64,000 nt of DNA, from assembly GCA_026627305.1 (NCBI GenBank), contig JAPNVD010000027.1:1-64000 (forward strand), in the 5' to 3' direction. The translations under genes and the position numbers were made by a program. Below, piece by piece: positions 29,811-58,292 of the stretch. Numbering within the stretch: the first letter of the stretch is position 1; the number at the start of each line of letters is the position of its first letter. This DNA is from Sulfolobaceae archaeon. Its GTDB lineage: Archaea; Thermoproteota; Thermoprotei_A; Sulfolobales; Sulfolobaceae. The notes beneath the pieces are model-generated. The model saw nothing but the letters and a program-made list of their open reading frames with translations, was not told where the DNA came from and did not search any database.

Positions 29811-29901
<91 letters not shown>

Positions 29902-39026: not shown

Positions 39027-39390
39027 TACTGTAGTATCTAGATAGAGTAAATGAGTCCTAAAAAGCCTATTAAACGAGAATGGAGTCAGTTTGCTTATTA
39101 ATAAATCGTAAGATTTCTTACCTTTTCTTTCAATCCTGTTAATTTTGAACCAAAATTCGATGTTTATAAAAGCTCATAATAGATATAAACAAGAATTATT
39201 AATAATATCTATTCTATGATATGATGAGAAATAAGATACGTTATAGAATATTATAGTAATTATATTGATAGCGAGGGTAGAAGAGATATTATGCCCTTAT
39301 AAGAGAATATGAAGGGCAAGATAAGGAATTTATGTAGGATTTTAGACAAATTCGTTGAGTTTTACAGAACTAGTACGTCATCTTCAATAG

Positions 39391-39475
<85 letters not shown>

Positions 39476-56282: not shown

Positions 56283-56489
56283 TTGAAACTGCCAGCAAAG
56301 CCTTTATTTAAAGCATGTAAGAAATGCAGAGCTTTGGTTCCTCCAGAGCAACAAGTTTGTCCTGTTTGCGGCTCAACTGAGTTTACCGAAGAATGGAATG
56401 GGATGATAATAATAATAAGAGAGGATTCTGAGGTTATGAAAGCTTTCGGGGCACCTAAACCTTGGAAATACGCAATAAACTTGAAGTAG
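56283..56489 (+). CDS. spt4: transcription elongation factor Spt4 (RpoE'')
   Basis: 'FKACKKCRALVPPEQQVCPVCGSTEFTEEWNGMIIII' double CxxC zinc site downstream of Rpo7. Confidence 0.94.
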   Translation: MKLPAKPLFKACKKCRALVPPEQQVCPVCGSTEFTEEWNGMIIIIREDSEVMKAFGAPKPWKYAINLK

Positions 56490-57004
56490 ATTACTGTTTT
56501 TATATAACTGAAAAGGATAGAAAAGAGTTCGCTAGACCATACGGATTATTATTTGTGAATAATAAAAAATTATTAAATTATTTAAATTCTTATAAAACTA
56601 TTATCTCGGTAGGAGATTATGTAACTCAATTGCTAGTGAAGTCTAACTTAATTCCTGATATAGCGATAATTGACATGAAAACTAAAAGAAATCAATTAGT
56701 AGAACTGAATGTTGATAAATTCAGCAAAATAATAAAAATAAAGAATGAAGCTGGTGTCGTTCGTTATTCAACACTACTCATCTTAAAAGAATTAATTGTA
56801 AACTCTAGTAATGGTAAGAATGTAGTTATTTTAGTTGATGGCGAAGAAGATGTATTGGTGCTGCCAATATCATTATATGCAGAGTCAGATACAGCAATAA
56901 TATATGGTCAACCAAACGCGGGTTCCGTGATAATGGAGGCTAATAGATATAATAAATGGAGGGCGTATGACCTGTTTTCTAAACTTAGGGTAAAAAAATG
57001 TTAA
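56462..57004 (+). CDS. GTP-dependent dephospho-CoA kinase (DUF359)
   Basis: 'FARPYGLLF...KTIISVGDYVTQLLVKSNLIPDIAIIDMKTKR...VVILVDGEEDVLVLPISLYAESDTAIIYGQPNAG'. Confidence 0.88.
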   Translation: MEIRNKLEVDYCFYITEKDRKEFARPYGLLFVNNKKLLNYLNSYKTIISVGDYVTQLLVKSNLIPDIAIIDMKTKRNQLVELNVDKFSKIIKIKNEAGVVRYSTLLILKELIVNSSNGKNVVILVDGEEDVLVLPISLYAESDTAIIYGQPNAGSVIMEANRYNKWRAYDLFSKLRVKKC

Positions 57005-57057
57005 TCAGACCTGCGCAGGGTCGTCACAATTTCCGTCCTTTCGAGCTTCATCACTCT
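57003..57057 (-). ncRNA. C/D box sRNA (2'-O-methylation guide candidate)
   Basis: Minus strand: GTGATGA(C)-AGCTCGAAAGGA-CGGA(D')-AATT-GTGACGA(C')-CCCTGCGCAGGT-CTGA(D); both guides exactly 12 nt. Confidence 0.85.
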
Positions 57058-58292
57058 CCAAACTTTTCCTCTCTATTTGAATAGTTCAGTAGTAGATTTA
57101 ATACATTAAGTCCTATAATTTTTAAACTTCCTTTCCTGGCTTCTCTCTCATTAAAATCGCTCACATTATCAGATATTATACTGTAAGGCACATAAAGTAG
57201 GAAAGGAACGGGATCGCCAGTATGATCCTTAAGCTCAACTGGAGTTGCATGATCTCCAGTAAATGCTAATACTATATCTGAACCATAATGATCTAATATT
57301 TTACCTATTACGCTATCTATTCTTTCAATGGCTTTTACTTTTTCCTCTATAAGTCCATCATGAGATGCTGCATCAGTAGCTTTTATGTGTAAAAACACGA
57401 AATCATAGTCCTTTAATAATTCTATAGCTGCCTGCGCCTTTGAATCATAATTAGTGTCTATCCCACCCGTAGCACCAGGTGGCGTAACTACTTTAAATCC
57501 TAGATCTTTACAAATTCCTTTTATCAATGCTGTAGCCGTTACTGCTGCCGGATTTATTTTAGTGTAGGAAGAAAATTGTGGCAATCTTTGATATTTTGCA
57601 GCACCTCTTAAAAGTATAATATTAGCTGGAAGTTCTCCTTCTTTACTCCTTTTCTCGTTTATAGGAGAGTTTGATAGCACTTCGTATATTCTCTTTGTAA
57701 GTTTATTAACAACACCTGCAGTTCTCTTTGCTTCAGGTGAATTGTCTAAAGGGTAGCTCATATTCAATTTCTTATTAATTTCATGAGGATCAGTATCAGA
57801 GATCCTATCTGATAAACCTGGTCCTGAAAGTACCACTGCTACCCTATGTTCAGTACCATGGTAAAATCGTACTTTAATGCCGTCTATTTCATTGATTTCT
57901 TGGTTTAATAATTTCACTAGTTCGTCAGCTTCTGGTAGTTTTCTGCCAGCTCTTCTATCTATTACCATAAAATCTGAGTTAACAGTTGCAAAATTGCCTC
58001 TAAAGGCTACATCGTTTTCAGATAGTTCTGCTCCAGCTCCAAGGGCTTCAAATGCCCCTCTTCCCCTATAATACTTATAGGGATCTAGCCCAAATATTGC
58101 CAAATGTGAAGTATCGCTACCTGGTCTTATGCCTGCATTTATAGGATCCATTAAGCCTACCATTGAAGATTTCAAAATCTCTTTGATGTTTGGTTTATCA
58201 GCCGCTTCAAGCGGGGTCTTAAGGTTTAATTTACTTACTGGTCTATCTCCTAATCCATCTGCTATAACCAAAACTATCTTGTATTGTCTCAT
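57051..58292 (-). CDS. apgM: 2,3-bisphosphoglycerate-independent phosphoglycerate mutase (archaeal apgM type)
   Basis: '[36 protein letters not shown]', '[31 protein letters not shown]', '[12 protein letters not shown]', '[24 protein letters not shown]'. Confidence 0.95.

Follow-up and report, generated by a model that had tools for sequence, protein, structure and literature searches.

A considerable number of C/D box sRNAs is known from S. acidocaldarius, where RNA sequencing has recovered 61-62 of them (PMC4644070, PMC5539422). In the compilation of Dennis et al., the 489 sRNAs from seven species include 163 without an rRNA target, and matches to tRNAs are described as "not compiled" (PMC4644070). 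One S. acidocaldarius sRNA is directed to U34 of tRNA-Gln(UUG) (Ziesche et al. 2004, cited in PMC7668247), and the tRNA sites of this organism that PMC7668247 cites from a guide database are found in tRNA-Gly(CCC) and tRNA-Gln(UUG); other methylations detected by mass spectrometry of its tRNAs are given there as orphans without a known guide. In Pyrococcus, sRNAs target position 34 of tRNA-Leu, tRNA-Met and tRNA-Trp (PMC7994747), and G47 of P. furiosus tRNA-Leu(UAA) is a predicted guide site at which, according to the same account of tRNA modifications, methylation was not detected (PMC7668247). For the tRNA-targeting sRNAs of Pyrobaculum, PMC7994747 describes one guide as being used and the other as lacking a target. 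With respect to gene context, an overlap with the 3' end of an open reading frame is found for roughly a quarter of the C/D genes of archaea, and close to half of these overlapping genes have the stop codon in box C (PMC7994747).

The locus described here is found in a stretch of 64,000 nucleotides (the window) from an incomplete Sulfolobaceae genome (1.90 Mb in 41 contigs, 79.5% complete). Read directly from the minus strand, positions 57054-57005 have the order GTGATGA-12-CGGA-AATT-GTGACGA-12-CTGA, so that the layout claimed in an earlier note is exact in every box and in both 12-nt guides (Table 1). The further claims of that note, that box C shares its TGA with the apgM stop codon and that box D adjoins the stop of a convergent dephospho-CoA kinase (DPCK) gene, likewise agree with the sequence, and both gene names are upheld by protein family matches. 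Box C and box D correspond to the consensus (RUGAUGA and CUGA), and the variant boxes D' and C' keep the G.A bases. A strict C/D pattern has a single match in the 64 kb window and a loose pattern finds the same one, where 300 simulated windows with the dinucleotide make-up of the real window give expectations of 0.00 and 0.02 matches per window, respectively.

Table 1. Coordinates of the sRNA, its parts, the adjoining genes and a predicted tRNA target within the window.
Feature	Position	Strand	Remark
C/D box sRNA core, box C to box D, 50 nt	57005..57054	-	
Box C, GTGATGA	57048..57054	-	apgM stop TGA (57053-57051) inside
D' guide AGCTCGAAAGGA, 12 nt	57036..57047	-	predicted +5 nucleotide U34 of tRNA-Glu(UUC)
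Box D', CGGA, variant of CTGA	57032..57035	-	
Linker AATT between box D' and box C', 4 nt	57028..57031	-	
Box C', GTGACGA	57021..57027	-	
D guide CCCTGCGCAGGT, 12 nt	57009..57020	-	contains palindrome CCTGCGCAGG
Box D, CTGA	57005..57008	-	directly after stop of convergent gene (57002-57004)
apgM, 2,3-bisphosphoglycerate-independent phosphoglycerate mutase	57051..58292	-	TIGR00306
Convergent DUF359 / GTP-dependent dephospho-CoA kinase-like gene	56462..57004	+	PF04019; start codon not settled
tRNA-Ser(UGA)	39390..39475	-	CCTGCGCGGG at 39420-39411; predicted Gm at 39417

Rfam release 15 contains no family that reaches its gathering score on the window, and the same holds for 14 apgM-end loci of this genome and its family and for the sRNA at 20 loci mainly of other families. 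The weak similarities to sR5 (19.8 bits against a gathering score of 40), sR12 (18.0 against 38), sR2 (15.5 against 42) and sR23 (11.8 against 45) involve alignments that agree mainly in the boxes. No match to the guide sequences was found in the literature, and none in the plasmid records searched.

The sRNA is present in all 31 Sulfolobaceae genomes searched, including one (G005) in which it lies a few kilobases away from apgM. In S. acidocaldarius, taken as strain DSM 639, the copy occupies positions 669558-669611 on the minus strand. The earlier note had named a lack of conserved boxes in syntenic relatives as evidence against its proposal; at or near the 3' end of apgM, boxes, 12-nt spacing and guides are kept in 29 of 30 readable Sulfolobaceae loci, the present one counted. 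The apgM stop codon falls within box C in 12 of these 29 loci and overlaps it by a single base in one more, so that a dependence of the sRNA on the stop codon was rejected; in the remaining loci of the family, the sRNA follows downstream of the stop at distances of up to about 250 nt. An alignment of 27 sequences shows 31 invariant positions among 55 consensus columns, with a diverging downstream flank, and guide lengths of 12/12 nt in all sequences except one with 13/12. The fifth base of box C covaries with the second base of box D (T-T in 16 sequences, A-G in 8, G-T in 3): all eight TGAAGA boxes C occur with a CGGA box D, and all 19 TGATGA or TGAGGA boxes with CTGA. This is the behaviour to be expected if both positions face each other in a k-turn, beside the tandem G.A pairs, the bases of which are invariant in the aligned sequences.

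Conservation extends well beyond the family. Of the 199 genomes of the order, 184 match a model built on the sRNA sequence alone; among the 120 with a completeness of 90% or more and a contamination of 5% or less, 117 do so. Outside the Sulfolobaceae, the sRNA is often located away from apgM, and a restriction to this gene was therefore rejected; in family 3 it directly follows tRNA-Asn. In two loci of that family (L341 and L351) the distance to the tRNA-Asn gene is about a dozen bases, an arrangement that looks like a tRNA-sRNA dicistron. The guide cores GCTCGAAAGG and CCGCGCAGG are retained in most of the other families. With boxes, spacing and guides conserved to this extent, we think that the locus almost certainly encodes a real C/D box sRNA, as the earlier note had proposed.

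As to possible targets, both guides show complementarity of at least 9 bp to a stable RNA that covers the +5 base, and in both cases this RNA is a tRNA. The core of the D' guide, GCUCGAAAGG, is complementary to the anticodon arm of tRNA-Glu(UUC) over 10-11 uninterrupted Watson-Crick pairs, with U34 at +5; its part GCTCGAAAGG is the exact complement of C31-C40 (CCUUUCGAGC). This complementarity was read in the genome under study, in S. acidocaldarius and in many further genomes. tRNA-Glu(CUC) and tRNA-Asp(GUC) are mismatched to the guide exactly at the +5 base. Only 3 of 1500 shuffled guides match the tRNA set of S. acidocaldarius as well as the D' guide does. The tRNA-Glu(UUC) gene of the genome under study carries an intron near positions 37/38, and the guide pairs over 10 bp with the spliced and over 9 bp with the unspliced form; a strict need for the spliced tRNA was rejected on this ground. 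The genes for this tRNA in the genome under study (L170, G000:C36:79-189) and in S. acidocaldarius (L133) possess an insertion in the D-loop, and ARAGORN labels the latter as Ser(CGA).

The D guide core, YYGCGCAGG, forms 10 pairs, one or two of them G.U, with class II tRNAs. The sequence that it faces, CCUGCGCGGG or CCUGCGUGGG, lies where the long variable arm meets the T stem. The G next to C48 on its 5' side falls at +5 and, by its place, is to be called position 47. The +5 nucleotides predicted in the earlier note, G for the D guide and U for the D' guide, thus fall on tRNA positions 47 and 34. In the genome under study the guide matches Leu(CAA), Leu(UAG), Leu(GAG) and Ser(UGA), which would then be its Gm47 targets, and in S. 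acidocaldarius it matches four leucine tRNAs and none of the serine tRNAs read. At two positions the guide varies between C and T among the genomes, and every one of these variants faces a G. Most genomes of the order contain several copies of the pattern CCTGCGYGGGTTC and almost none of its reversed control; the counts include, in some genomes, the guide itself in antisense and a few matches outside tRNAs. Taken alone the match is modestly significant, being reached by 69 of 1500 shuffled guides. The window also contains an intron-containing tRNA (29811-29901, minus strand) with the anticodon "ct", which ARAGORN leaves unnamed.

The pairing is not perfect in all lineages. In genus 5, the tRNA-Leu genes read CCUGCACGGG, CCUUCGCGGG or CCUACGCGGG, with one mismatch to the D guide, and Ser(UGA) fits this guide in three of four genomes checked. 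In genus 2, an A stands opposite C36 in two of three genomes. The D' guide of genus 8 (L035 and L331) carries one extra C (GCTCGACAAGG); this base would loop out of the duplex with tRNA-Glu and leave the +5 register intact. In family 8 (G037), A37 of tRNA-Glu stands opposite a C of the guide, which still reads GCTCGAAAGG, and no compensatory change was found in this family; its D guide is changed at position 2, near box D. In family 7 (G046, locus L348), the D' guide is GGCTTTCAAGG in place of GCTCGAAAGG, and this sequence pairs, with one G.U and again with U34 at +5, with the anticodon arm of tRNA-Ser(UGA) as found in the genome under study and in G037 (CCUUGAGAGCC). It is thus possible that the D' guide of family 7 (G046) has been re-aimed to tRNA-Ser(UGA), judged by the target sequence of relatives. 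Among the lineages compared, no convincing compensatory change of guide and target was found, and the misfits are mostly single changes.

The earlier note had also drawn attention to a perfect palindrome in the D guide, CCTGCGCAGG, that could support self-pairing or dimerization. The palindrome is present, but among the genomes read it is confined to the one under study and to genus 5, most relatives having CCCGCGCAGG or CTCGCGCAGG, and because of the T that creates it, the guide forms a G.U with its target in place of a G-C pair. Furthermore, the sRNA strand has no folding advantage over shuffled versions of itself (z 0.10). The lack of conservation means that self-pairing is no feature of the design; the palindrome was rejected as a functional element and is incidental.

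From what holds for the class, we infer that the sRNA is transcribed, assembled into an RNP and active in methylation. It would be processed out of the 3' end of the apgM transcript, its presumed host, and its C/D and C'/D' motifs would be bound by L7Ae, at two k-turns, and by Nop5 and fibrillarin. Methylation would fall on the target base opposite the fifth nucleotide of the guide, counted back from D or D'. Under this rule the D' guide would set Um34 at the wobble base of tRNA-Glu(UUC), and the D guide would set, in class II tRNAs, a Gm 5' of C48, where the long variable arm has its hinge. We regard it as probable that both guides act on tRNAs in this manner. More tentatively, and short of an even chance, one nearly invariant RNA might serve the whole order by directing both Um34 of tRNA-Glu(UUC) and methylation of G47 in class II tRNAs, its wobble guide having been re-aimed to Ser(UGA) in one family.

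As alternative, the RNA could be a real C/D box sRNA with its true targets in rRNA, mRNA, 5S or SRP RNA, so that the tRNA matches of one or both guides would be coincidental. The share of shuffled guides that reach the D guide match, about 5%, would agree with this, as would the guide of family 8 that did not follow the change in its tRNA-Glu, and the scan covered a selection of the stable RNAs. However, when 16S and 23S rRNA of seven genomes were scanned with G-U pairs allowed, only short matches appeared, none of them common to the species, and the best uninterrupted rRNA pairing has 8 Watson-Crick pairs and one G.U compared with 11 and one on tRNA-Glu. Of the rRNA and tRNA targets that the earlier note had suggested checking, the tRNAs are supported and the rRNAs are not. 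For the D guide, a conserved ACCUGCG in the 3'-terminal part of 16S rRNA was rejected as a target, since the pairing covers 7 bp and is followed by mismatches. In addition, the D' guide addresses the wobble base in the exact +5 register and tells isoacceptors apart at just this base, and both guides and their tRNA targets stay constant across most families read. We therefore consider targets other than tRNAs unlikely.

A second alternative is that the RNA acts mainly as a folding chaperone of tRNAs, or as an L7Ae-bound k-turn of the apgM mRNA 3' end, with methylation being secondary. Binding of L7Ae to mRNA k-turns has been described in S. acidocaldarius (PMC5539422), and 12 of the 29 loci have box C over the stop codon; both points would favour this reading. 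Yet the sRNA leaves apgM in other families and lies up to about 250 nt downstream of it within the family, its guides remaining fixed, which indicates that a function for apgM is not what is conserved, and we rate this second alternative as very improbable. A chance resemblance in a convergent intergenic gap, without any RNA gene, would be in keeping with the lack of an Rfam match, but it is refuted by the order-wide fixation of the guides and by the expectation of zero matches in the window, and can practically be dismissed.

Compared with the described systems, the present RNA has the boxes, the two 12-nt guides and the +5 rule in common with the C/D box sRNAs of S. acidocaldarius, and it is likely that the copy in this organism has already been catalogued among them. 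The compiled targets of that set are in rRNA only (PMC4644070), whereas those predicted here are in tRNAs. A stop codon within box C is an ordinary arrangement, given its frequency among archaeal C/D genes in the account of PMC7994747. The sRNA for U34 of tRNA-Gln(UUG) is likewise a C/D guide aimed at a tRNA wobble uridine, but the present RNA would address another tRNA and would have its second guide on class II tRNAs. The guides of Pyrococcus have like kinds of target, the wobble position and G47 of tRNA-Leu, in another phylum, and the portions of PMC7994747 and PMC7668247 used here do not describe both sites on one RNA. In light of these known wobble and G47 guides, the rRNA-only compilation and the one-guide sRNAs of Pyrobaculum, the RNA looks like a new and unusually conserved member of the archaeal C/D class with both guides on tRNAs. 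Among archaeal C/D box sRNAs, those that lack an rRNA target are the least understood, and the present one would link a single sRNA to how glutamate codons are decoded and how leucine and serine tRNAs are shaped, providing two concrete methylation assignments that can be tested in a genetically tractable organism. Its guides are almost unchanged across the order, contrary to the usual fast-changing guides, and if both are confirmed, this double tRNA guide would be an exception to fast guide turnover as well as to the one-guide rule for tRNA-targeting sRNAs.
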